From: Microbacterium testaceum
GTDB lineage: Bacteria > Actinomycetota > Actinomycetes > Actinomycetales > Microbacteriaceae
Direction of reading: 5' to 3'
Assembly (NCBI RefSeq): GCF_029761935.1
Contig: NZ_CP121699.1
Coordinates: forward strand, 744,001-808,000
DNA length: 64,000 nucleotides
Made by a program: the position numbers and the translations under genes. Shown one piece after another: positions 7,474-20,801 of the stretch (position 1 is the stretch's first letter; each line of letters begins with the position of its first letter). The notes beneath the pieces were generated by a model. That model saw only the letters and a program-made list of their open reading frames with translations. It was not told where the DNA came from and searched no databases.

Positions 7474-8261
7474 CCGACAACGGCTCGGTCAAACAGGTCA
7501 TCATCAAGCCGGATGCCGAGACCCTCGCCTCGTACGTCGCCACGCGCTTCGTGAACCGCATCGTGAAGCGGGTCGCCGAGGGCAAGCGCATGCACGTGTG
7601 CCTCACCGGGGGCACCATGGGCGGAGCGGTGCTGCGCACCGCGGCGAAGGACGCGCGGGTCGGCGAGATCGACTGGTCGCTCGTGCACTTCTGGTTCGGC
7701 GACGAGCGGTTCGTTCCGCGCGACTCGGACGACCGCAACGAGAAGCAGGCCCGCGAGGCGTTCCTCGACCACCTCGCCATCCCGGCCGAGAACATCCACA
7801 CCGTCGCCTCGAGCGAGGACGGTCTCGACCTCGATGCCGCGGCGATCTCGTACGCCGATGAGCTGGCGCAGTTCGCTCCCTCGGACCGCAGCGAGACGGG
7901 ACCCTGGCCCGCCTTCGACATCTGCTTCCTCGGGGTCGGACCCGACGCGCACATCGCCTCGCTGTTCCCCGATCGTCCCGAGATCTCGGTGACCGATCGG
8001 GCCACCGTTCCGGTGCGCAACTCCCCCAAGCCCCCGAGCGATCGCGTCTCGCTGACGCGGCCCGTCATCAACTCGTCGAAGCGCGTGTGGATGGTCGTCG
8101 CGGGCGCCGACAAGGCCGCCGCCCTGGGGCTCGCCCTTGCCGGTGCGAGCTATCAGAGCGTTCCCGCGGCCGGGGCGAAGGGTCGCCGTCGCACGGCGTT
8201 CTTCGTCGACGAGGTCGCGGCCGATCAGGTTCCGCCGCAGCTCATCGACCGCGAGTACTGA
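7470..8261 (+). CDS. pgl: 6-phosphogluconolactonase
   Basis: Hydrolyses 6-phosphogluconolactone to 6-phosphogluconate, the second oxidative step. The 263-aa protein belongs to the NagB/RpiA/DeoR-like fold: CLTGGTMGGAVLR near the N-terminus, VHFWFGDERFVP near residue 70, and the catalytic-type segment FLGVGPDAHIASLFPD near residue 155. ATG 7470 overlaps the opcA stop. It is the last gene of the operon. The remaining oxidative enzyme, 6-phosphogluconate dehydrogenase, is not in the window. Confidence 0.95.
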   Translation: MTDNGSVKQVIIKPDAETLASYVATRFVNRIVKRVAEGKRMHVCLTGGTMGGAVLRTAAKDARVGEIDWSLVHFWFGDERFVPRDSDDRNEKQAREAFLDHLAIPAENIHTVASSEDGLDLDAAAISYADELAQFAPSDRSETGPWPAFDICFLGVGPDAHIASLFPDRPEISVTDRATVPVRNSPKPPSDRVSLTRPVINSSKRVWMVVAGADKAAALGLALAGASYQSVPAAGAKGRRRTAFFVDEVAADQVPPQLIDREY

Positions 8262-8514: not shown

Positions 8515-11058
8515 ATGCCATTTGTCGGTCGAGATCGAGAGTTGCACGTTGCCGCGAACCTGATCGGTTCGGGTAGCGGCTCCGCGGGCTTGTTCGTCGG
8601 TGAAAGCGGGTCGGGCAAGTCCGCCCTGGCACGCGAGGTCGCGGCGCGCCACGACGCCGTGGTGGTCACGGCCAGTCCGAGCGAGCGCATGTGGCCGCTC
8701 TCGGGCGTCACCGCGGTGGTGGCGGCGCTCGACGACGGGCGACGAGATGCGGTCGACAGGGTCCTGTCCCGCGGCGGCGACTGGCCCGAGCACCTCCTGG
8801 CCGAGGAGATCAGCCGCACCCTCCACCTGCTGCGGGCCGATCCGTGCGTCGTCGTCGTCGACGACCTCGACGAGATGGACAGCGCGAGCATCACCGTGCT
8901 GTCGTACGTCTTCGGACGCCTCCGCGGCACCGGCGTCAGCGTGATCGCCACGAGTGGCTCGTTCGAGGGACGCCACGACTTCGCTGGAATGCTGCAGACC
9001 CGCATCCAGCGGTTGTCGTTCGACGAGTCCGTCGATCTCGCGCGCAACGTTCTCGGGGCGGGTGCCGATCGCGCCGTGCTGCGGATCGTCGCGGACCTCG
9101 CCGCGGGCGACCCCGGTGTACTGGTGGGCTTGCGCCTCACCCCCGCCGAGGCGAACGGCGACGAGCCGCTCAGCGTTCCGCTGCGCGTGCGGGACCAGCA
9201 GCGCAACCCGCGGAAGCAGCGTGAGTGCCGCGCGATCTACCCGAGGTGGGCGCACGTCCTCGACCTTCTCGCCGTAGGTCCCGTATACGGGCTCGACCGG
9301 CTGCGCACCACCGCCGACGAGGACGACGTCGACATCGACGATCTGATCGATCACGGCATCGTCTCCGTCCACGGCGGTCTCGCCCGCATCGCCGACCCGG
9401 CTCGCCGACTGCGCCTGCACGCCGGACTGACCCCGGAGGAGCGTCGCGCCCTGCACGCACGAGGAGCGGCCGACCACGCCGGCGCGTACCCGGCGACACG
9501 GCGCTGGCACGAGAGCTTCCTCGACCCGGCCGCCGATCGCGGCGCACTCCTCGAGGGCGCCATCCGGCTGGCTCGAGACGCCGAGACCACGGCGGCCGTC
9601 GAGTTCGCCGAGCGGGCATTGGCCGGCGAGATGGACGAAGCGCGTCGCTGCGAACTCCTCGTCGACCTCGGCGAGGCCCTCGTGCTCGGCGGACACGACC
9701 TGCTCGGTCAGCACTACCTCCGGCGGGCCGGGGTGAGCGCCGATCCCGCGACCCGCACGCGCGCCGCGATCGCCCGTCTCCGCGCGGTCGCGGCGGTGGA
9801 TCACACGGTCGACGACAGCGTGCTCCATCAGGTCGATCCGCTCCTGGGCGCCGAGGCCGCGGCATCCGAGAGGCTTCTCTGTGAGAGCGCCTGCCTCCAC
9901 CTGCACCGCGGCGAGGTCGACCTGGCCGTCGAACGGATCGCCCTCGCCGTGAAGCTCGGCGTCGCGTCCACCCAGACGGCGCTGCTCGCCGGTATCGCCG
10001 CAGAGATGGGCGGGCGCTCCCACGCCGCGGCGGCCATCCGTCTCGAAGACGACGGCGACGACGTCCAGATCCACCACGCCCTGCTGTACGCGGGGCTCAC
10101 CCTGCTGCGCGAGGACTACAGCACGGCCCGACGGATCATCCGCGCCGAGCTCGACCGTTCCCCGCGACACGCGCCGATGTGGCGAGAGCACCTTCTGCGT
10201 CAGCTCGTCACGGTCGAGGTCCGTGCCGGAGACCCGATCGCCGCGCGCGACGCCGTCGTCGCGTGGCAGCGCGAGTGGATCCCCGGACGCAGCACCGACG
10301 CCGCCAGCACGCTCATCCTCGCCGCCGAGGCGGCGATGCACGAACCGCCCACCGGTGCCGCCGATCTCGTGGAGCGGGGGCGGGAACGAGCCCGTCGCGA
10401 AGGCGCGAGCACCCTGACGCCGTGGTTCGCGGCGATCGAGGGGGCCCTCGCCCTCGGCGAGGGGCGGTACGCCGAGGCCGTTCTGCACTTGCGCGAAGCC
10501 CTCTCCTCCCACGCCGACGACGACCCCGCCGTGATGCGTCTCGACGCCGACCTCATCGAAGCCCTCTGGCTCGACGGTCGACATGACGAAGCTTGCGAAG
10601 AACTGGAAGGCCTCGAGCGCGCGGCCGCCGATTCGACGAAACGGTGGACCCACCTCGCCCTCGCGCGCTCGCGGGCCGTCTGCCGGTCCGCCCGCGAGGG
10701 CGCGGCGGCCTTCCGTGACGCCGAAACGCTGTTCCGCGGCGACGACTCCCCTCTCGAGCGGGAACGCCTCCGCCGGGCGGAGGAACGGTGCCTGACGGAC
10801 GTCCGCGTGTCGGCCGTCCGCGCGATCGGTGGCGACGCCGTCCCGACCCCCCGACCGGGTCGGAACGCGCGAGAGCTCACCGGCCACGAACGTGAGATCG
10901 TCGCCCTCGTCGAGCGCGGGTTGCGCAACCGCGAGATCGCGGCGGCCCTGTTCATTTCGCTCCGCACGGTCGAGCTGCGCCTGACCGGCATCTACCGCAA
11001 ACTCGGCATCACCTCGCGGGTACAGCTCGTGGCCCACCTTCGCGGAGCGGCGAGCTGA
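8515..11058 (+). CDS. LuxR-family transcriptional regulator with N-terminal ATPase (LAL type)
   Basis: Large cytosolic ATP-dependent activator. The 847-aa product opens with an AAA/STAND-type domain (MPFVGRDRELHVAANLIG, Walker A GESGSGKSA near residue 30, Walker B-like VVVDDLDE near residue 120). A long alpha-helical, TPR-like middle follows. It ends in a LuxR helix-turn-helix: LTGHEREIVALVERGLRNRE, then IAAALFISLRTVELRL. ATG 8515 has AGGGAG 7 nt upstream; longer in-frame starts lack a ribosome site. Its ligand is unknown. The gene converges on, and overlaps by 50 bp, the glycosyltransferase of the polysaccharide locus, which it might regulate (inference). Confidence 0.85.
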   Translation: MPFVGRDRELHVAANLIGSGSGSAGLFVGESGSGKSALAREVAARHDAVVVTASPSERMWPLSGVTAVVAALDDGRRDAVDRVLSRGGDWPEHLLAEEISRTLHLLRADPCVVVVDDLDEMDSASITVLSYVFGRLRGTGVSVIATSGSFEGRHDFAGMLQTRIQRLSFDESVDLARNVLGAGADRAVLRIVADLAAGDPGVLVGLRLTPAEANGDEPLSVPLRVRDQQRNPRKQRECRAIYPRWAHVLDLLAVGPVYGLDRLRTTADEDDVDIDDLIDHGIVSVHGGLARIADPARRLRLHAGLTPEERRALHARGAADHAGAYPATRRWHESFLDPAADRGALLEGAIRLARDAETTAAVEFAERALAGEMDEARRCELLVDLGEALVLGGHDLLGQHYLRRAGVSADPATRTRAAIARLRAVAAVDHTVDDSVLHQVDPLLGAEAAASERLLCESACLHLHRGEVDLAVERIALAVKLGVASTQTALLAGIAAEMGGRSHAAAAIRLEDDGDDVQIHHALLYAGLTLLREDYSTARRIIRAELDRSPRHAPMWREHLLRQLVTVEVRAGDPIAARDAVVAWQREWIPGRSTDAASTLILAAEAAMHEPPTGAADLVERGRERARREGASTLTPWFAAIEGALALGEGRYAEAVLHLREALSSHADDDPAVMRLDADLIEALWLDGRHDEACEELEGLERAAADSTKRWTHLALARSRAVCRSAREGAAAFRDAETLFRGDDSPLERERLRRAEERCLTDVRVSAVRAIGGDAVPTPRPGRNARELTGHEREIVALVERGLRNREIAAALFISLRTVELRLTGIYRKLGITSRVQLVAHLRGAAS

Positions 11059-12343
11059 GCGGAGCGGCCGCCGGTTCGCCCGACAGCTGCGACATCCGGC
11101 GATCGGGGCTACGCCAGCGCCCGTCGGACGGGCGCCCGAGCGCGGCGACGAGGGCACGGAGGCACAGGGTCGCATCCCACACCCGGAGGAGGGGGAACAC
11201 GAGCATCCGGGGATGCGGGCGCGTGCGCGACACCGCACAGGTGAACGCGCTCATGACGAGGTCGACGATCAGGAACCCCGCGGCCAGGGGAAGCACCGGA
11301 AGGGCCGCGGCTACCGCGGCCGCCGTCGCCGCTGCGGCACCGTCTGTCGTCGCCGCGACCACCGTCGCCAGAGCTCCGACGACCAGGAGCGGGAGCATCG
11401 CCACCAGGACCAGACTCGACACGACGGTCTCGACCGCGAAGACGCCGACCGACGACCAGAAGAGGCCAGGATGGGGTCCGTGGCGGCGTACCGTCTGCCA
11501 GAACCCGAGGCTCCAGCGCCGGACCTGCGCCGAGTAGTCGCGCAGGACCGCGGGATCCTGCGTCTCGGCGACCGCGCACTCGGGGTGGAAGGCGATCCGC
11601 CCGAGCCTCTTAGCGTGGACCTCGAAGGTCATGTTGAAGTCCTCGATCGACAGTCCGGGAGCGTCGATGTCGATGCGATGCAGCACATCGGTGCGGTAGA
11701 GGCTGGCGAACCCGGGCACGATCGCCACGGCATCCGCCCCCCGCGCCGCCTGCCCGAACTTGTGCAGGTACTGCGTGCACACGTACGTGCGCTCGCGGTA
11801 CGAGGTGAGCACGCGCCCCACGCCCGTGGGCGGGAGTTCCGCCGACGTGGTCGCCCGACCGGCCACCGCGACGACGCCATCGTCCGTGAACTGCGGAAGC
11901 GCGGTACGCAGATAGTCGGGGCGAGGCCGGGAGTCCGCGTCGAGCAGCAGGAGCAGGGGGAACCGCTCCGGGATCCGGAAGTGACCGAGGCCCGCCCGGA
12001 TAGCGCCCGCCTTCCCCCGGTTCGGCGTGAGGTCCCAGGCCTCGGCACCGGCGGCTCGCGCGCGCTCGACGGTGTCGTCGTGCGAGCCGTCCGACACGAC
12101 GAACACGTTGCCCGCAGGCACGAGGCGGCGCGCCGCACGCACGGCGTCGGCGATCACGAGCTCCTCGTCGTGCGCGGCGATGAGGATCGCCACCTCGGCG
12201 CTGCGGAAGTACATCGACGGGTTCAGCAGCGCGGCGGACGGTCGACGCTCGGCGACGAGACGGCACACCGCCGCCGTGCCCCATACGAGCGTCGACACAC
12301 CGATCGTGCACACCGCGACGAGCACGACGAGTGCAGGGGTCAT
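11009..12343 (-). CDS. Processive family 2 glycosyltransferase (membrane polysaccharide synthase)
   Basis: The 444-aa membrane protein polymerises activated sugars at the cytosolic face. One N-terminal membrane segment (residues 5-27) precedes a GT-A domain with DGS at 85-87, the DAD motif at 135-137, ED at 234-235 and QVRRW at 273-277. The D, D, D, QxxRW set marks processive enzymes such as hyaluronan, chitin, cellulose and poly-GlcNAc synthases. Several membrane helices follow from about residue 300 to 370, probably forming the export channel. ATG is preceded by GAGG. It is divergent from the nucleotide-sugar dehydrogenase and probably makes the polymer of this locus. Substrate cannot be read from sequence. 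Confidence 0.85.
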   Translation of the reverse strand: MTPALVVLVAVCTIGVSTLVWGTAAVCRLVAERRPSAALLNPSMYFRSAEVAILIAAHDEELVIADAVRAARRLVPAGNVFVVSDGSHDDTVERARAAGAEAWDLTPNRGKAGAIRAGLGHFRIPERFPLLLLLDADSRPRPDYLRTALPQFTDDGVVAVAGRATTSAELPPTGVGRVLTSYRERTYVCTQYLHKFGQAARGADAVAIVPGFASLYRTDVLHRIDIDAPGLSIEDFNMTFEVHAKRLGRIAFHPECAVAETQDPAVLRDYSAQVRRWSLGFWQTVRRHGPHPGLFWSSVGVFAVETVVSSLVLVAMLPLLVVGALATVVAATTDGAAAATAAAVAAALPVLPLAAGFLIVDLVMSAFTCAVSRTRPHPRMLVFPLLRVWDATLCLRALVAALGRPSDGRWRSPDRRMSQLSGEPAAAPLSSPLREGGPRAVPAR

Positions 12344-12672
12344 GGCATCCCACCTCTTCGGGTCGAGGGTTCGGGTCGCGCCCCCGGATCGGGCGACCGG
12401 ATGACGCGTCGAAGGCGACCGTACGTGACCCGGCGCTCGTCGAGGCCGCCTCGACCCGCAGTTGCGGTTGCGGTTTCCCGCAGATCGCGATGCGGGGAGC
12501 GGTACCCCGCAGGATCGTCCGCGATTGCTTGACCCGACCCGCGCCGACGACGCACTGTGATCCCCGGATCAGCGTCGATACCCGATCGGACGCCGTCCCA
12601 CCACCCGAAATCGTCCGAGGGGGCGCTGCATTTCCCCCGCCGCCCCCTCGGACCCTGCCTTGGAGGATGAAG
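12344..12672. promoter_or_regulatory. Divergent control region of the polysaccharide locus
   Basis: These 329 bp separate the glycosyltransferase and the dehydrogenase and must hold promoters for both. Visible structure: a 7-bp inverted repeat TGCGGGG/CCCCGCA at 12491-12511, a TTGACC near 12529 that could be a -35 element for rightward transcription (no matching -10 is clear), and a 13-bp-stem hairpin at 12613-12653. No additional gene is supported here. Confidence 0.5.
12613..12653 (+). promoter_or_regulatory. Leader hairpin just before the dehydrogenase ribosome site
   Basis: A perfect 13-bp stem (GTCCGAGGGGGCG with CGCCCCCTCGGAC) closes a 15-nt loop containing TTTCCCCC. It ends 8 nt before the Shine-Dalgarno GGAGG. 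The C-rich loop or stem could gate ribosome access or act as an attenuator of the whole sugar operon. The role is inferred; the structure is visible. Confidence 0.5.
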
Positions 12673-14004
12673 ATGTCCACTCTCGATGTCCGGGCCGACG
12701 TGATGACCACGCCGCGGCCCCCGGCTCCCGCCCCGACGCGGACGTTCGACTTCGACGTCGCCATCGTGGGGCTCGGGTACGTGGGCCTGCCGACCGCCCT
12801 GGCCTATCACGCCAGCGGGTCGCGCGTTCTCGCCCTCGACGTCTCGCCGCGACGCCTGCGCGACATCGCCGCGCGCAGCGCCGACCTCATCGACTCCGAC
12901 CGGGAGCGCCTCGAGACCGCTCTGCACGCGCCGGCGGGCTTCCGGCTCACCAGCGACACCTCGGAACTCGGCCGCGCCGCCGCGATCGTCGTGTGCGTCC
13001 CCACGCCCGTCGACCACCAGCAGGTCCCGGACCTCACCGCGCTCCGGGCGGCGTGCGCCACCGTCGTCGCCGCCGTCCGGCCCGGCCAGCTCATCATGCT
13101 CACCTCGACCACCTACGTCGGCTGCACCCACGACCTCGTCGAGAAGCCGCTCCTCGAACGCGGGATGCAGATCGGACGCGACGTCTTCGTCACCTTCAGC
13201 GCCGAACGGATCGACCCCGGCAACGTGGGCTTCGCCCAGGAGATCGTCCCCCGCGTGGTGGGCGGAGCCACCGCCCAGTGCGAAGAAGAGGGCGCGCGCC
13301 TGCTCGCACGCTACGCGGCGCGCGTGCACCGGGTGTCGAGCCTCGCCACCGCCGAGATGACGAAGCTGCTCGAGAACACCTTCCGCGCCGTCAACATCGC
13401 CCTCGCCAACGAGTTCGCCGACATCTGCGGTGCCCTCGACGTCGCCGTCACCGAGGTGATCGAGGCCGCGAGCACCAAGCCCTACGGCTTCATGGCGTTC
13501 TACCCCGGCCCCGGCGTCGGCGGACACTGCATCCCCTGCGACCCGCACTACCTGCTGTGGCAGCTCAAGGCGCTGCACGTCGACGCGGGCGTCATCACCG
13601 AGGCCATGACGCGCATCGCGGCCCGCCCTCGCCGTGTCGTCGACCGCATCCGCGATGTCCTCGGACGCGCCGGCAAGGGCACGCTCGGCGCCCGCGTGCT
13701 CGTCGTCGGCGTCACCTACAAGCCCGACGTCGCCGACTTGCGCGAATCCCCCGCCCTCGAGATCATCGACCACCTGATCGACGTGGGCGCCGAGGTGCAG
13801 TACGTCGACACCCACGCCCCGCACATCCGCCTCGATTCCGGGCGGGAACGCGATTCGCTGCCCGACCCGGCGGCCTTCCATCCCGACATCGTGCTCGTGC
13901 ACACCCGCCACCACGACGCCGACCTGGGCTGGCTCGACGGCCACGCGGTCGTCGTCGACGGCACCTACCGCAGCGCCGACATCGCGGGGCGGGTGCTCCT
14001 GTGA
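12673..14004 (+). CDS. Nucleotide-sugar dehydrogenase (UDP-GlcNAc/UDP-ManNAc 6-dehydrogenase type)
   Basis: Oxidises the C6 hydroxyl of a UDP-hexose (or UDP-HexNAc) to a uronic acid with two NAD+, giving an acidic building block. The 443-aa protein has the Rossmann motif VGLGYVGLP near residue 35 and the catalytic cysteine Cys286 in GPGVGGHCIPCDPHYL. The C-terminal domain contains VGVTYKPDVADLRESPA. Cys-Ile-Pro-Cys-Asp-Pro is closer to WbpA/WecC enzymes than to UDP-glucose dehydrogenase. ATG 12673 is preferred over ATG 12667 because GGAGG abuts the latter and is 6 nt from the former. The end overlaps the epimerase by 4 nt. Confidence 0.87.
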   Translation: MSTLDVRADVMTTPRPPAPAPTRTFDFDVAIVGLGYVGLPTALAYHASGSRVLALDVSPRRLRDIAARSADLIDSDRERLETALHAPAGFRLTSDTSELGRAAAIVVCVPTPVDHQQVPDLTALRAACATVVAAVRPGQLIMLTSTTYVGCTHDLVEKPLLERGMQIGRDVFVTFSAERIDPGNVGFAQEIVPRVVGGATAQCEEEGARLLARYAARVHRVSSLATAEMTKLLENTFRAVNIALANEFADICGALDVAVTEVIEAASTKPYGFMAFYPGPGVGGHCIPCDPHYLLWQLKALHVDAGVITEAMTRIAARPRRVVDRIRDVLGRAGKGTLGARVLVVGVTYKPDVADLRESPALEIIDHLIDVGAEVQYVDTHAPHIRLDSGRERDSLPDPAAFHPDIVLVHTRHHDADLGWLDGHAVVVDGTYRSADIAGRVLL

Positions 14005-15065
14005 GCGGCCTGACGATCTACCCGGGCTCCGCCTCGCCTCGGACGCGCACGCTGGTCACCGGGGGCGCCGGGTTCGTCGGCAGCCACCTCGTCGAGCACC
14101 TGCTGACCCTGGGTGACGAGGTCGTCGTCCTCGACGACCTCTCGACCGGCTCGGCACGCAACCTCGCGGGCGTCGCCGACAACCCCCGCCTCGAGATGAT
14201 CCACGGCTCGATCCTCAACACCAAGACCGTGAGCGCGGCGATGCAGGGATGCGACCGCGTTTTCCACCTGGCCGCGGCCGTCGGGGTGAAGCTCATCGTG
14301 GAGCAGCCCCTGCGGGGTCTGCGCATCAACATCCACGGCACCGAGAACGTGCTGACGGCGGCCATCGAGCACCAGGCCTCGGTGCTCATGGTGTCCACGA
14401 GCGAGGTGTACGGCAAGAACACCGCCGATCGCCTGCGCGAAGACTCCGACCGCGTCCTCGGCGACCCGCTGCTCTCCCGTTGGACCTATGCGGGGGCGAA
14501 GGGCATCGACGAGGCCTTCGCCAAGGCCTACTGCGACCAGGAGGGCCTCGACGTCTCGATCGTCCGCCTGTTCAACACCGTCGGGCCCCGCCAGACCGGT
14601 CGCTACGGCATGGTGCTGCCCAACCTCGTGGGGCAGGCCCTGCGTGGCGCTCCCCTCACCGTGTTCGGCGACGGCCAGCAGACGCGCTGCTTCTCCGCGG
14701 TCGAGGACGTCGTGCCCGCGATGGTGCTCATCGAGCGGGACCCGCGCGCACGGGGTCAGGCCTACAACCTGGGCGGCGCGCGCGAGATCTCGATCTTTGA
14801 GCTCGCGACCGAGATCATCCGCACCCTCGACAGTCGGAGCACGATCGAGCTCGTCCCCTACGAGCAGGCGTACGCCCCCGGCTTCGAGGACATGCGGCGC
14901 CGCGTCCCCGACAACACCAAGGCGCACGACCTCGTGGGCTATGAGCCGCACACCTCGCTGACCTCGACGATCATGCGAGTCGCCGCCGACCTGCTCTCGC
15001 GCGAACGCCTCGGCTCCGACGCCATGCCGCTGGCCGGCGCGGGCGCTTTCCGCGGGGTCCTCTAA
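14001..15065 (+). CDS. NAD-dependent sugar-nucleotide epimerase/dehydratase
   Basis: Extended short-chain dehydrogenase acting on a nucleotide sugar (4-epimerase, decarboxylase or dehydratase). In 354 aa it shows the NAD motif TGGAGFVGSH near residue 20, the active-site STSEVYG near residue 131 and the catalytic pair Tyr163/Lys167 in YAGAK, followed by FNTVGPRQTGRYG. The overall pattern resembles UDP-glucose 4-epimerase and UDP-glucuronate decarboxylase families and does not separate them. GTG 14001 overlaps the dehydrogenase stop. TAATG joins it to the following glmS, so three genes are coupled. Likely adjusts the uronic acid or HexNAc for the polymer. Confidence 0.85.
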   Translation: MSGLTIYPGSASPRTRTLVTGGAGFVGSHLVEHLLTLGDEVVVLDDLSTGSARNLAGVADNPRLEMIHGSILNTKTVSAAMQGCDRVFHLAAAVGVKLIVEQPLRGLRINIHGTENVLTAAIEHQASVLMVSTSEVYGKNTADRLREDSDRVLGDPLLSRWTYAGAKGIDEAFAKAYCDQEGLDVSIVRLFNTVGPRQTGRYGMVLPNLVGQALRGAPLTVFGDGQQTRCFSAVEDVVPAMVLIERDPRARGQAYNLGGAREISIFELATEIIRTLDSRSTIELVPYEQAYAPGFEDMRRRVPDNTKAHDLVGYEPHTSLTSTIMRVAADLLSRERLGSDAMPLAGAGAFRGVL

Positions 15066-16879
15066 TGTGCGGCATCACCGCGTACCGCGGTCCGACGTCC
15101 GCCGCCTCGCGCGCCCGAAGCGCCCTCGAGCGTCTGGAGTACCGGGGCTACGACTCCGCGGGCATCGCCGCGCGGCACGTCGACGGCACGGCCCTGCACG
15201 TGCGCACCCTGAACGGCGTGGCATCCCTCACCGACGCGGTGCGTTCGGGCGAATCGGGGACGGATGCCACGACCTCGGCGATCGGTCACACCCGCTGGGC
15301 CACCCACGGCGGGGTCAGCGAGCGCAACGCCCACCCGATCGAGGACTGCAGCGGTCGGTTGTTCCTGGTGCACAACGGGATCATCGAGAACGCCGATCTG
15401 CTGCGGGCGCAGCTCGTCGCCGACGGGCACCGGTTCGCCACCGACGTCGACAGCGAGGTGATCGTCCACCTGCTCGAGCAGGCGTTGCGCCCCGGGGTGG
15501 GGCTCGGCGACGCCCTCGCCGACATCGTCACGCGCCTCGAGGGGTCGTGGGCGATCGTCGCCCTCGACAGCCGGTCGGGATCGCTCGCGGGAACGGCGCA
15601 CGGTTCGCCCCTCATCTTCGCCGAGGGCGAAGAGGGGGTCTACTTCGCGAGCGACGTGGGTGCGATCACTCCGGTGGTCGAGACCTTCCGCGTGCTGGAG
15701 GACGACGACGTGGTCGAGGTGGACGCGGGAGGCATGCGGTGGCACCGCGCGGGCGGCAGTTGTCGCCCGCGCGGACTGTGGCCCGTCCCGCAGACGGCGT
15801 ACCTGTCCAGCAAGGGGCGCCATCGCGACCACATGGGCAACGAGATCGACGAGCAGCCCGCCGTGGCGCGCCGCGTGCTCGAGGTCCTCACCCCCGGGAT
15901 CGCCGACGGCATCCTGTGGCGAGGGGCGGGCCTTCCCCCGCTCGACGAGGTCGATCGGGTGACGGTCATCGGGTGCGGCACGTCGCTGCACGCGGGCCGT
16001 GCGGTGGCCGGGGTGTTCTCCCGCCTCGGCGGCCTCCCCACCCGCACGCTCGTCGCGAGCGAGGCGGCGCACGAGGTGTGGGAGCCGCGCACGCTGGTGA
16101 TCGCGCTGAGCCAATCGGGTGAGACGGCCGACGTCCTCCGGGCACTCGACGGCCTCCCGGCCCGCGGGCGCACCGTGTTGGCCCTGACGAACAATCCGTC
16201 GTCGACCCTGGCCCGTCGCGCGGATGCGACACTCGATTGCCTCGCCGGTCCCGAGATCGGGGTCGCCGCGACGAAGACGTTCGTCGCCCAGGTCCTGACG
16301 GGTGCCTGCCTCGCCCTCTCGGGGTTGTCGGTCTCGTCGCGGGCCGACGCGATGGCCCTCGATGGTGACCTGCGCGCGCTGGCCGCGACCCCGGAGGCCC
16401 TGTCGGCCGCTCTCGACACCTGGCGCGGCCCCGCGGCGAAGATGGCCGCCGAGTTCGTCAACGCCCCCGGCTTCCTCTTCCTCGGCCGCGGCTCGGGTCT
16501 CGTCTACGCCGCCGAGGGAGCGCTCAAGCTGAAAGAGCTGTCGTACCGGTGGACCGAGCACCAGCCGGCGGGCGAGCTGAAGCACGGCCCTCTCGCCCTG
16601 GTGGATGCCGGCACCCCGGTGTTCGTCGTCGACAACGGCGATCCGCGGCTCGACGTCGACGTCGCCGAGATCCTGGCCCGCGGCGGCCGCGTGCTCCGCG
16701 TGGGGGAACGCGTGCTGAACGTGGGCGGCATCCCGCTGCACCTGCCGCGGACCGGCCCCTCGTGGGGACCACTCGAGACGGTGGTGCCCCTGCAGATGTT
16801 CGCTCGCGAGCTCGCCCTGCGCCTGCGCCGCGACGTGGACAAGCCCCGCAATCTCGCGAAGTCGGTGACGGTCTCGTGA
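15065..16879 (+). CDS. glmS: Glutamine-fructose-6-phosphate aminotransferase (GlmS-type)
   Basis: Makes glucosamine-6-phosphate from fructose-6-phosphate and glutamine, the first committed step to UDP-GlcNAc. The 604 aa match full-length GlmS. The Ntn glutaminase domain starts with catalytic Cys2 (MCGITAYRG) and has RLEYRGYDSAG and GHTRWATHGG. Two SIS domains follow, with VIGCGTSLHAGR near residue 300, SQSGETADV near 350 and the C-terminal KSVTVS. ATG shares bases with the epimerase stop (TAATG). Being inside this locus it is probably a dedicated paralogue feeding hexosamine to the polymer, with a housekeeping copy elsewhere (inference). Confidence 0.92.
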   Translation: MCGITAYRGPTSAASRARSALERLEYRGYDSAGIAARHVDGTALHVRTLNGVASLTDAVRSGESGTDATTSAIGHTRWATHGGVSERNAHPIEDCSGRLFLVHNGIIENADLLRAQLVADGHRFATDVDSEVIVHLLEQALRPGVGLGDALADIVTRLEGSWAIVALDSRSGSLAGTAHGSPLIFAEGEEGVYFASDVGAITPVVETFRVLEDDDVVEVDAGGMRWHRAGGSCRPRGLWPVPQTAYLSSKGRHRDHMGNEIDEQPAVARRVLEVLTPGIADGILWRGAGLPPLDEVDRVTVIGCGTSLHAGRAVAGVFSRLGGLPTRTLVASEAAHEVWEPRTLVIALSQSGETADVLRALDGLPARGRTVLALTNNPSSTLARRADATLDCLAGPEIGVAATKTFVAQVLTGACLALSGLSVSSRADAMALDGDLRALAATPEALSAALDTWRGPAAKMAAEFVNAPGFLFLGRGSGLVYAAEGALKLKELSYRWTEHQPAGELKHGPLALVDAGTPVFVVDNGDPRLDVDVAEILARGGRVLRVGERVLNVGGIPLHLPRTGPSWGPLETVVPLQMFARELALRLRRDVDKPRNLAKSVTVS

Positions 16880-16958
16880 CCGGCCGCGCCTCCCCGGTCC
16901 CCGGCCCCGACGACTCAGGGATTCGCCGACGGACCCGCCCCACCCGAAAGGACACCCC

Positions 16959-18410
16959 ATGATCCACCGACACGCCGCCCCCGGGCGTCGGCGACTCCGC
17001 GCCCTCGCGGTCATCGCTGCCGTCGCCGTCGGAGCGGGCGGGCTGATCGCCGCGGCACCGCCCGCCGCGGCACCTGCCCAGGCCGCCACCCGCACCATCG
17101 TCAGCCTCACGTTCGACGACGCCAACTCCGACCAGCTCAACGCCCTCCCCGCCCTTCAGGCCAACGGCATGAAGGGGACGTTCTACATCAACTCCGGATT
17201 CATCGGCGCGGCGGGGCACATGACCCGCACCGACCTGACGAACCTGAAGAACGCGGGTCACGAGATCGGCGGGCACACCGTCAACCACCCCGACCTCGCG
17301 CAGGTCAGTGTCGACGAGGCCACGCGCCAGATCTGCACCGACCGCAAGAACCTCACCTCGTGGGGCTTCACGGTGCGCAGTTTCGCCTACCCCTTCGCGT
17401 CGTCGACCCCCGCCGTCGAGAAAGCCGTGGCGAACTGCGGGTACAGCAGCGGGCGCCTCCTCGGCGACATCCGCAGTCGCTTCGGCTGCCCCGACTGCGC
17501 CTACGCGGAGTCCACCCGCCCGGCCGACAAGTACGCGCTCAAGGCCCTCGACCAGGTCGACGCCACCTGGACGCTCGACGACCTCAAGGCGGGGGTCACG
17601 AACGCCGAGAAGAACGGCGGCGGGTGGGTGCAGTACACCTTTCACGACGTCTGCGACGACGCGTGCAGCGACCTGGCGGTCACCACGTCGTTGTTCAGTC
17701 AGTTCACCTCGTGGCTGAAGACGCGACAGGCGGCGGGGACGGTGGTCAAGACGATCGGCGACGTCATCGGCGGCACGGCCAAGCCCGTCGTGGACGGCCC
17801 CTCGGTGCCCGCCGTGACGGGGTCGACCAACGGCATCGTCAACCCGAGCATGGAGACCGGTGCTCCCGACTGCTGGATGAGGGGCGGTTACGGCAACAAC
17901 ACCCCTGCGTTCAGCACCGGCTCCCCCGCGCACACGGGGAACATCTCGAGCGGAATCGTCATGTCCGCGTACGTCGACGGCGATGCCAAACTCCTCCCGC
18001 AGTTCGACCTCGGCCAGTGCTCCCCCACGGTGACACCGGGCAAAACATATACGCTGCGCGAGTGGTACCAGTCGAGTGGGGTGACGCAGTTCGCGGTCTA
18101 CCTCCGGTCGACGAGCGGTTCGTGGTCGTACTGGACCTCGAGCCCGTGGTTCTCCTCGGCCGCCGACTGGACGCAGGCCGACTGGACGACGGCCGCGATC
18201 CCCGCCGGCTACAACGGCATCAGTTTCGCGCTGACGATCTTCGGCAACGGCACCCTCCGCACCGACGATCTGCAGCTCTACGACAGCACCGGTGCCCCGT
18301 CCCTGGCCCCCGCCACCGTGACCGCCCCGTCGTTCGCCCCGATGACCGCGACGCCTCCCCAGGGCCCGGTGGAGAAGGTCCACCCCACCGAGAGCGACGT
18401 CACCGGATGA
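16959..18410 (+). CDS. Secreted polysaccharide deacetylase (NodB/CE4) with C-terminal carbohydrate-binding-like domain
   Basis: Exported enzyme that removes acetyl groups from a GlcNAc polymer outside the cell. The 483-aa product has an Arg-rich n-region and a hydrophobic signal ending near AQAAT. The CE4 domain has TFDD (Asp53, Asp54) and the metal-binding HTVNH (His106, His110), then FAYPF. From about residue 285 the sequence (SMETGAPDCWMRGGYGNN onward) looks like a beta-sandwich carbohydrate-binding module rich in Trp and Ser. GAAAGG precedes ATG. It lies 79 nt after glmS and overlaps the lipoprotein by 4 nt. It probably modifies the product of the neighbouring synthase. Confidence 0.88.
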   Translation: MIHRHAAPGRRRLRALAVIAAVAVGAGGLIAAAPPAAAPAQAATRTIVSLTFDDANSDQLNALPALQANGMKGTFYINSGFIGAAGHMTRTDLTNLKNAGHEIGGHTVNHPDLAQVSVDEATRQICTDRKNLTSWGFTVRSFAYPFASSTPAVEKAVANCGYSSGRLLGDIRSRFGCPDCAYAESTRPADKYALKALDQVDATWTLDDLKAGVTNAEKNGGGWVQYTFHDVCDDACSDLAVTTSLFSQFTSWLKTRQAAGTVVKTIGDVIGGTAKPVVDGPSVPAVTGSTNGIVNPSMETGAPDCWMRGGYGNNTPAFSTGSPAHTGNISSGIVMSAYVDGDAKLLPQFDLGQCSPTVTPGKTYTLREWYQSSGVTQFAVYLRSTSGSWSYWTSSPWFSSAADWTQADWTTAAIPAGYNGISFALTIFGNGTLRTDDLQLYDSTGAPSLAPATVTAPSFAPMTATPPQGPVEKVHPTESDVTG

Positions 18411-19156
18411 CGCGGACGCTGCGGCCGGCGGCGGCGATCATCCTCGTGGTGGTCGCCGCCGCCGGCCTGTCGGCGTGCGCCCCACCCGCCGTGCCGCGCC
18501 CCGACACCGGGTACCCGTGGCACACCGACGTCGTGGCGACGACCTTCTGGGTGGGCGAGGTGTTCGACCCGAACGCCTCCGACGGGAGCCAGCGCCTCTC
18601 GACGTACGACTCGGACTGGCTCGGGTCCTACGGCGGGTGCGATGGGATCGTCGACGGCACCGACTGCCGCACCGAGGCCCGTACCGCCGACGCCGGGTAT
18701 TTCCCCACCGCCATGACCCCGCGCGAGAACCCGTTCTACCTCGACCTGCCGTTCGACGACGTCAACGACGACCAGGGCTTCGCCACGCGCGGCTCGGTCA
18801 TCCCGTGGGCGAAGGAGCCGGCCTACTCCTCGGCCGTCGACGACCCCTCGCAGAGCCTCATGAAGAACCGGTGGGTGGTCCTGCGCACGGACGGACACGT
18901 CTGCTACGGCCAGATCGAGGACGCGGGACCCGGCGAGTACCGCGACGCTGCCTACGTGTTCGGCTCCGACGACCGTCGTCCCGCGAACACGCGGTACAAC
19001 GGCGCGGGCCTCGACGTCTCGCCCGCCCTGAACGGTTGCCTGGGCTTCTCGGATCTCAACGGGGAGGACGACCGCGTCGACTGGGCCTTCGTCGACGACG
19101 CCGACGTCCCCGCCGGCCCCTGGACGAGGATCGTCACCGACTCCCCGGTCCGCTGA
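18407..19156 (+). CDS. Lipoprotein, possibly with a double-psi beta-barrel (RlpA/expansin-like) domain
   Basis: The 249-aa product has a lipoprotein signal with lipobox LSAC near residue 24, so it should be anchored outside the membrane. The mature part has many acidic and aromatic residues and several cysteines that could pair. The segment GLDVSPALNGCLG followed by VDWAFVDDADVPAGPW resembles the D-[LV]-S-P-A and W-R-F-V pattern of double-psi beta-barrel proteins such as RlpA, expansins and GH45 enzymes. That fold call is tentative. It is coupled to the deacetylase by an ATGA overlap and is last in the operon, so a role in binding, cutting or anchoring the polymer is the simplest guess. Confidence 0.7.
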   Translation: MTRTLRPAAAIILVVVAAAGLSACAPPAVPRPDTGYPWHTDVVATTFWVGEVFDPNASDGSQRLSTYDSDWLGSYGGCDGIVDGTDCRTEARTADAGYFPTAMTPRENPFYLDLPFDDVNDDQGFATRGSVIPWAKEPAYSSAVDDPSQSLMKNRWVVLRTDGHVCYGQIEDAGPGEYRDAAYVFGSDDRRPANTRYNGAGLDVSPALNGCLGFSDLNGEDDRVDWAFVDDADVPAGPWTRIVTDSPVR

Positions 19157-20012: not shown

Positions 20013-20801
20013 TCAGACGCCGACGTGCTTCTGGAAGCGGACGATCGCGGCGAACTCGTCGACGACGAGGCTCGCGCCACCCACCAGGGCGCCGTCCACA
20101 TCGGGCTCGCGCATGAAGCCGGCGATGTTCCCCGACTTCACCGAACCGCCGTAGAGGACGCGCGTGCGAGCAGCCGCATCGGCGCCCAGCTTGTCGGCGA
20201 CGACCGCACGGAGCTTGGCGCAGACCTCCTGGGCCTGATCGGGCGTCGCCGCCTGACCCGAACCGATGGCCCACACCGGCTCGTAGGCCACGACGATGTC
20301 GGCGTCCGCCGCCACGCCCTCGAGCGCGACCTCGAGCTGACCGACCGGAACGGCGCTGGCGCCGAACTTCTCGAGGTCCTCCGAGGTCTCGCCGACGCAG
20401 ATGACCGGCGCGAGACCGTGGCGAAGGGCCGCCTGGGTCTTCGCCGCGACGACCTCGTCGGTCTCGTTGTGGAACTGACGACGCTCCGAGTGCCCGATGA
20501 TCACGTACTTCGCATCGAGCTTGGCCAGGAACTGACCCGAGATCTCGCCGGTGTACGCGCCGGAGTCGTGAGCCGACAGGTCCTGACCGCCGAGGGCGAA
20601 GTCGATCTTGTCGGCGTCGAGCAGCGTCTGCACGGTGCGCAGATCGGTGAACGGCGGGAAGACCGCGACCTCGACGCTTCCGGCCTCGTGCTTGGCTTCC
20701 TTCAACGTCCAGTGCAGCTTCTGAACGAACGCGACCGCCTGCAGGTGGTCGAGGTTCATCTTCCAGTTGCCGGCGATGAGGGGGGTTCTGGTCACTGCCA
20801 T
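20013..20801 (-). CDS. tpiA: Triosephosphate isomerase
   Basis: Interconverts dihydroxyacetone phosphate and glyceraldehyde-3-phosphate. The 262-aa TIM barrel has LIAGNWKMN at the N-terminus, the catalytic His region IIGHSERRQ near residue 100, the catalytic Glu motif YEPVWAIGSG near residue 174, and phosphate-binding LYGGSVKSGN. ATG 20801 is preceded by GGAGG at 7 nt and lies inside the last codons of pgk (10-bp overlap), so translation is coupled. Third gene of gap-pgk-tpiA. Confidence 0.97.
   Translation of the reverse strand: MAVTRTPLIAGNWKMNLDHLQAVAFVQKLHWTLKEAKHEAGSVEVAVFPPFTDLRTVQTLLDADKIDFALGGQDLSAHDSGAYTGEISGQFLAKLDAKYVIIGHSERRQFHNETDEVVAAKTQAALRHGLAPVICVGETSEDLEKFGASAVPVGQLEVALEGVAADADIVVAYEPVWAIGSGQAATPDQAQEVCAKLRAVVADKLGADAAARTRVLYGGSVKSGNIAGFMREPDVDGALVGGASLVVDEFAAIVRFQKHVGV

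Follow-up and report, generated by a model that had tools for sequence, protein, structure and literature searches.

What kind of polymer, if it is a polymer at all, do the six genes between positions 11009 and 19156 of this stretch of Microbacterium testaceum DNA make? The stretch (contig NZ_CP121699.1, positions 744,001 to 808,000, here called the window) is 64,000 nucleotides long. The genes encode a processive-type GT2 synthase, a nucleotide-sugar dehydrogenase, an extended short-chain dehydrogenase/reductase (SDR), a GlmS paralogue, a secreted CE4 deacetylase and a lipoprotein. The original prediction took them for a synthase-type locus making a partly de-N-acetylated, acidic aminosugar polymer. 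We believe a conserved synthase-type polysaccharide locus is very probable, and a CE4-modified aminosugar polymer remains part of our reading. The word acidic is not supported, given a WecC-like dehydrogenase and an SDR whose active-site residues match UDP-uronate decarboxylases. The locus instead probably makes an aminopentose polymer that resembles chitin and is de-N-acetylated in part.

The first point is whether these genes belong together. An alignment of the lipoprotein led to 175 genome loci, of which the best 80 were fetched; all neighbourhood counts refer to these 80 and to genes that pass fixed tblastn score limits within 10 kb of the lipoprotein. CE4 is present in 73 of the 80, GT2 and the dehydrogenase in 70 each and the SDR in 69, while relatives of an adjoining LuxR-type regulator and of GlmS are found in 38 and 35. 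The core of GT2, dehydrogenase, SDR and CE4 is complete in 66 loci (19 of the 20 from Microbacterium and 47 of the 60 others), and the sole Microbacterium locus without it, L011, lies on a contig that is cut short. The complete loci come in 12 arrangements, with 37 of the 66 keeping the window's order. The gene tpi is a neighbour in all 20 Microbacterium loci and in none of the 60 others, so the co-occurrence of the core is not inherited synteny. The six-gene set is no chance neighbourhood. It was to be checked whether the neighbours stay together across Microbacteriaceae; they do, and also beyond that family, in Micrococcaceae, Nocardiaceae, Pseudonocardiaceae, Nakamurellaceae, Nocardioidaceae and others. 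Judging by record titles, some loci without the core are second copies in genomes with a complete locus elsewhere (L046 with L073, L047 with L052, L057 with L066), L069 and L059 are from genomes with a nearly complete one (L032 and L065, respectively), and L070, L074, L080 and L084 are listed without a partner locus. In the 765-amino-acid homologue P0230, GT2 is fused to the SDR, which ties the product of the SDR to the synthase.

The set also varies. No GlmS paralogue was seen in five Microbacterium loci (L012, L013, L016, L019, L020) that have the remaining genes. Many Arthrobacter-type loci (L050, L052, L055, L064 and L079, for example) have an expanded form with two or three CE4 matches, LuxR-type regulators and an extra lipoprotein copy, about 50% identical. 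When open reading frames (ORFs) were clustered over the 80 loci, many clusters resembled antisense frames. As few clusters were annotated, the survey of accessory genes elsewhere is incomplete; one ABC-ATPase cluster is FtsE. A plasmid search with the lipoprotein gave no match. The same search with GT2 gave 75 records, only one of which, from Mesorhizobium, covers more than 80% of the query, and no other member of the set was found in the 15 kb viewed on one side of it.

Within Microbacterium the locus is an accessory island between pgl, which ends at 8261 in the window, and tpi, which begins at 20013. The lipoprotein is found in 13 of the 198 Microbacterium genomes searched, counting the source genome, and in 3 of 296 genomes across the phylum, two of which carry distant relatives. 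We located tpi in 12 lipoprotein-negative Microbacterium genomes and inspected nine. Four of them (L144, L149, L151, L152) have pgl and tpi only 732-795 bp apart, a short and unoccupied site, and in the first (genome G007) the flanking proteins are 91-97% identical to those of the window. These sites mark about 11 kb, including the regulator, as an accessory insertion. In the other five (L145-L148, L150) the several kb fetched next to tpi showed no pgl, and the junction may carry other insertions there. The GC content (0.69-0.74 in the island, 0.64-0.71 in the flanks) is not telling.

The dehydrogenase bears on which sugar would enter the pathway. It is 33% identical to E. coli WecC (171 bits) and 27% identical to Ugd (75 bits), it has the motifs FRxVNIA and PGPGVGGHCI in common with WecC, and among solved structures it comes closest to Cap5O and an archaeal UDP-N-acetylmannosamine (UDP-ManNAc) dehydrogenase. 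By these comparisons it is of the UDP-N-acetylhexosamine (UDP-HexNAc) type. We reject a UDP-glucose dehydrogenase, and with it a hyaluronan model, on the same WecC and Ugd scores. PF02350, the UDP-N-acetylglucosamine (UDP-GlcNAc) 2-epimerase family, was not found in the source genome, which is 99.94% complete, by a search that was positive in 11 of 14 control genomes. It is also absent from 8 of the 13 lipoprotein-bearing Microbacterium genomes, the source genome counted. Because of these absences UDP-GlcNAc is the likely predicted substrate, and for the same reason we reject a dependence on UDP-ManNAc. The source genome has a second UDP-sugar dehydrogenase at C1:1589 kb.

The SDR bears on what would become of the resulting uronate. 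Its top matches in the PDB are entries of human UXS1, a UDP-glucuronate decarboxylase, at 161 bits, against 102-106 bits for WbpP and WbgU. It keeps Glu, Tyr and Arg at UXS1 positions E120, Y147 and R277 (positions counted by eye), which we take to be the catalytic residues. An SDR relative was detected in 69 loci, and 60 ORFs could be extracted from 59 of these. The motifs STSE[V/I]YG, RxxYxxxK and RRxP[D/N] are all present in 59 of the 60, one per locus; the exception, with STDE, is an off-target second SDR in L045 that is 32% identical. ArnA and a Sinorhizobium meliloti UXS candidate also contain STSE and RxxYxxxK; both motifs are missing from E. coli GalE and from the UXE candidate of S. 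meliloti. The S. meliloti candidates were chosen by blast and tandem position, presumably being the tandem genes that were named UXS and UXE. A simple 4-epimerase is rejected on the UXS1 match and on these motifs standing in place of the GalE/UXE pattern, and the active-site residues put the earlier label of SDR epimerase in the wrong sub-class. The SDR scores 93 bits against the NCBIfam TviC equivalog, whose cut-off is 760.

As a sequence pattern, these motifs set decarboxylases and dehydratases apart from GalE and UXE, not from each other. However, a C6 carboxylate is no substrate for a 4,6-dehydratase, and decarboxylation is thus the reading that makes sense for an SDR encoded next to a 6-dehydrogenase. 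In a tree of 33 SDR sequences the locus proteins form a clade that includes a homologue from a Streptomyces plasmid (support 99/97). GalE and UXE pair together (100/99) outside a group of 29 (94/93), which comprises UXS, ArnA, the proteins of the loci and two others; within it, the closer fork that unites UXS and ArnA with the locus proteins has less support (86/86). We consider it rather likely that the enzyme is a decarboxylase of UDP-N-acetylglucosaminuronic acid (UDP-GlcNAcA).

Two related gene pairs were seen on replicons of other bacteria. On S. meliloti pSymB (L136:3929-6547) a dehydrogenase (40% identical) and an SDR (38% identical) form a divergent pair, with the active-site variant SSSE, beside a polysaccharide flippase-type gene and a GT4-type gene. 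On the Streptomyces plasmid (L137:6566-14836) a 51%-identical SDR adjoins a nucleotide sugar dehydrogenase in a wall-glycan-like cluster (MraY-like, WecB/TagA, LCP).

The remaining genes bear on the polymer itself. All the motifs that the original prediction had read in GT2 are there (DGSHD, DAD, ED and QVRRW). GT2 is 23% identical to E. coli PgaC over 391 amino acids, and scores 43 bits against PgaC/IcaA, the closest named NCBIfam model, whose cut-off is 422.3. The idea that this gene set is distinct from ica/pga and has loci agrees with that score and with the WecC-type dehydrogenase. The CE4 metal motifs TFDD and HxxxH (HTVNH) are intact at positions 51 and 106, and in NCBIfam the protein comes nearest to HfsH (68 of the 400 bits needed). 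Secretion of CE4 is backed by an N-terminal hydrophobic signal; the binding module claimed for its C-terminal region is not, as there is no Pfam match even at E 5. GH18 proteins occur in some loci: in one recurrent ORF cluster, all 8 loci have one that passes the Pfam cut-off. Thirteen Arthrobacter-type loci have a GH18-like gene, and the six scanned gave two sub-cut-off GH18 matches and four without one. GH18 catalysis needs a 2-acetamido group, so these neighbours suit a chain of the GlcNAc or N-acetylxylosamine (XylNAc) type.

The lipoprotein is confidently modelled as a double-psi barrel resembling expansins and GH45/GH75. The model, built from the 80-sequence alignment, has a predicted local distance difference test (pLDDT) of 92.3. 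It supports the possible double-psi barrel of the original prediction and supersedes a first model from 32 close relatives, which had a pLDDT of 69.9 and weak fold matches. Fold comparisons are led by kiwellin and expansins with modest Z. Profile comparisons give no support for membership of GH75: there is no family match, and hhalign shows just a short DxGP match. The family is large: 7,968 of 7,999 scored candidates fall at E <= 0.001, and 119 of the 120 members listed (P0241-P0360) have no Pfam domain. It would be a large secreted double-psi-barrel group that has no Pfam model.

From these genes we infer the following route, and with it the substrates, the identity and linkage of the polymer, its export, the target of deacetylation and the role of the lipoprotein. 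GlmS2 would boost the hexosamine flux to UDP-GlcNAc, the dehydrogenase would oxidize it at C6 to UDP-GlcNAcA, and the SDR would decarboxylate this to UDP-N-acetylxylosamine (UDP-XylNAc). GT2 would polymerise UDP-XylNAc, alone or with GlcNAc, and use its own membrane segments to extrude the chain, which would make a Wzx/Wzy or ABC exporter unnecessary. The secreted CE4 may then strip some of the N-acetyl groups, which would leave a cationic polymer similar to chitosan but without the C6 hydroxymethyl. At the cell surface the lipoprotein may bind, loosen or trim this polymer or a wall glycan. We put the probability of this explanation as a whole at roughly 0.5. The broader idea of a widespread actinobacterial XylNAc polymer at the surface or in biofilms, a chitin analogue lacking C6 (xylochitin) that CE4 turns into cationic xylochitosan and that a new double-psi-barrel family processes at the surface, we offer tentatively, as somewhat less probable.

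Several results weigh against this route. PF02350 is present in 5 of the 13 lipoprotein-bearing Microbacterium genomes. E. coli GDP-mannose dehydratase, Gmd, also has STSE and RxxY, and the epimerase contrast consists of GalE and the UXE candidate. Several reference branches in the SDR tree are long, with a tool warning of false joins. NCBIfam ranks the LegB dehydratase first for the SDR (165 of the 475 bits needed); the S. meliloti UXS candidate likewise scores best to LegB, so these scores do not discriminate. The likeness to characterised UDP-XylNAc synthases lies in the enzyme pair as described. GT2 is far from characterised synthases, with no PDB match for GT2 alone and only short, weak profile matches: to one unnamed glycosyltransferase and to the synthases of chondroitin, hyaluronan and heparosan. 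GH18 was not found in the source genome. Members of the lipoprotein family are also named as Patescibacteria, Marinitoga and an archaeon, and no core gene was found (E 1e-5, stretches of 10-20 kb) near four distant relatives, three copies in G352 and one in G207. This spread argues that the lipoprotein is not specific to the polymer of the locus.

Some of the same evidence can be read differently. In a reading close to the original prediction, the SDR would be a 4-epimerase of UDP-GlcNAcA, GT2 would polymerise N-acetylgalactosaminuronic acid (GalNAcA) or GlcNAcA, and CE4 would make the polymer zwitterionic. According to the accessible part of a report on Bordetella, the same enzyme pair (BB2925/BB2924 and BB0876/BB0877) makes UDP-GlcNAcA and then UDP-GalNAcA (PMC12407052), and TviC and WbpP are among the distant matches of the SDR. 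However, UXS1 outscores WbpP and WbgU, and STSE with RxxYxxxK is unlike GalE and UXE, the only epimerases compared. With UXS-type residues in the SDR, the uronate more likely serves as an intermediate for decarboxylation, and we consider an acidic polymer unlikely. A slightly less favoured idea is that GT2, in the manner of a hyaluronan-type synthase, takes two donors and combines GlcNAc with XylNAc or another sugar, in alternation or mixed, and that the SDR may be a 4,6-dehydratase working on a separate donor. GlmS also supplies GlcNAc, GT2 has its weak similarity to two-donor synthases, and STSE occurs in Gmd. Against this, the dehydratase route needs a reductase or aminotransferase, none of which is among the seven island genes scanned, and the fusion of GT2 with the SDR speaks for a synthase that uses the SDR product directly; such a heteropolymer is doubtful. 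Finally, it is quite improbable that GT2 glycosylates a lipid or wall polymer while CE4 and the lipoprotein remodel peptidoglycan: peptidoglycan is a frequent target of CE4 and double-psi-barrel proteins, the lipoprotein family occurs widely away from loci of this kind and the Streptomyces SDR lies by wall-glycan-type genes, but the hydrophobic segments flanking the GT domain and QVRRW fit processive synthases, and the seven island genes include no polyprenyl-phosphate transferase, ligase or LCP gene.

The layout of the locus is as originally described (Table 1). All six ORFs were verified with their coordinates and strands, five overlapping or nearly touching on the forward strand and GT2 pointing away from them across about 0.3 kb. 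The regulator and GT2 are convergent and their 3' ends overlap by 50 bp. The best start of the dehydrogenase is 12673 or 12667, downstream of GGAGG. Pfam and NCBIfam back the assigned classes for all but the lipoprotein, which has no family match, and GlmS is indeed a paralogue, 37% identical to a second genomic GlmS at C1:1567 kb.

Table 1. Genes of the island, in window coordinates
Gene product	Positions	Strand	Features
AAA-ATPase/LuxR-type regulator (start uncertain)	8515..11058	+	AAA_16, GerE (Pfam); within island
Processive-type GT2 synthase	11009..12343	-	1 N-terminal and 2-3 C-terminal hydrophobic segments
Nucleotide-sugar 6-dehydrogenase, UDP-HexNAc type; putative UDP-GlcNAc 6-dehydrogenase	12673..14004	+	TIGR03026, 350 bits
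Extended SDR; putative UDP-GlcNAcA decarboxylase (UDP-XylNAc synthase-like)	14001..15065	+	4-bp overlap with dehydrogenase
GlmS paralogue; putative flux booster to UDP-GlcNAc	15065..16879	+	GlmS, 523 bits; TAATG, 1-bp overlap with SDR
Secreted CE4 polysaccharide deacetylase, ~190-aa C-terminal region of unknown family	16959..18410	+	PF01522, 70 bits; 79-bp gap after GlmS
Lipoprotein, predicted double-psi beta-barrel; invariant Asp172 and Asp203	18407..19156	+	Lipobox LSAC; 4-bp overlap with CE4

Few synthase-dependent polymers have been worked out in Gram-positives. The accessible part of a 2020 survey gives poly-N-acetylglucosamine (PNAG) in staphylococci as the only one characterised both genetically and structurally (PMC7112194). 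Here a system of five to six genes recurs across many actinobacterial genera. No poly-XylNAc polysaccharide or locus of this kind was described in the literature searched, most subscription journals lying outside its coverage. The Actinoplanes sporangium-matrix cluster gave no lead: as far as its accessible text goes, it has GT4s and a transport-domain protein, and no deacetylase or UDP-sugar enzyme is named (PMC12691653). Our reading makes an enzymatic prediction, a nucleotide sugar with [M-H]- of 576 and not 620. If true, a xylosamine polymer would be new both as a bacterial biomaterial and as a source of extracellular aminosugars.

How does the locus compare with known systems? Like the pga/ica systems for poly-beta-1,6-GlcNAc it has a membrane GT2, a CE4-type deacetylase and no Wzx/Wzy. 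It differs in its dedicated dehydrogenase and SDR, in a GT2 below the PgaC/IcaA cut-off and in a deacetylase that is not fused to a recognised hydrolase domain, and no PgaA, PgaD, IcaD or IcaC domain is among the seven island genes scanned (the rest of the genome was not searched). The has locus for hyaluronan differs in that the island dehydrogenase is of the HexNAc type, not the UDP-glucose type. With the Vi/WbpO-WbpP HexNAcA polymers and b-Cool it shares a UDP-HexNAc dehydrogenase with an SDR, whereas its SDR active site is unlike the epimerases compared (GalE, UXE) and the seven genes hold no GT4 or ABC domain. Expansins, GH45, the GH75 chitosanase V-Csn and kiwellin have the double-psi barrel that is predicted for the lipoprotein, which has no sequence-family match to them. 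UXS and ArnA share STSE, RxxYxxxK and the C-terminal Arg with the SDR, UXS1 being the best PDB match, but identity is 27-39%, the clade is separate and the partner dehydrogenase in the locus is HexNAc-type.

A further parallel is the UDP-XylNAc pathway of Bacillus cereus, also proposed for incednine and related actinomycete macrolactams, where a HexNAc-type dehydrogenase is likewise directly followed by a UXS-type SDR. From what is accessible of these papers, B. cereus NVH 391-98 makes UDP-XylNAc with UDP-GlcNAc 6-dehydrogenase and UXNAcS (PMC5078965), IdnS2 and IdnS3 are proposed for the steps from UDP-GlcNAc to UDP-XylNAc in incednine biosynthesis (PMC11284099), and xylosamine genes are inferred in ciromicin-type clusters (PMC10662134). 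In those accounts the sugar appears as a nucleotide sugar or in small-molecule glycosides, whereas here a predicted pair of this kind stands beside a processive-type synthase and a secreted deacetylase.

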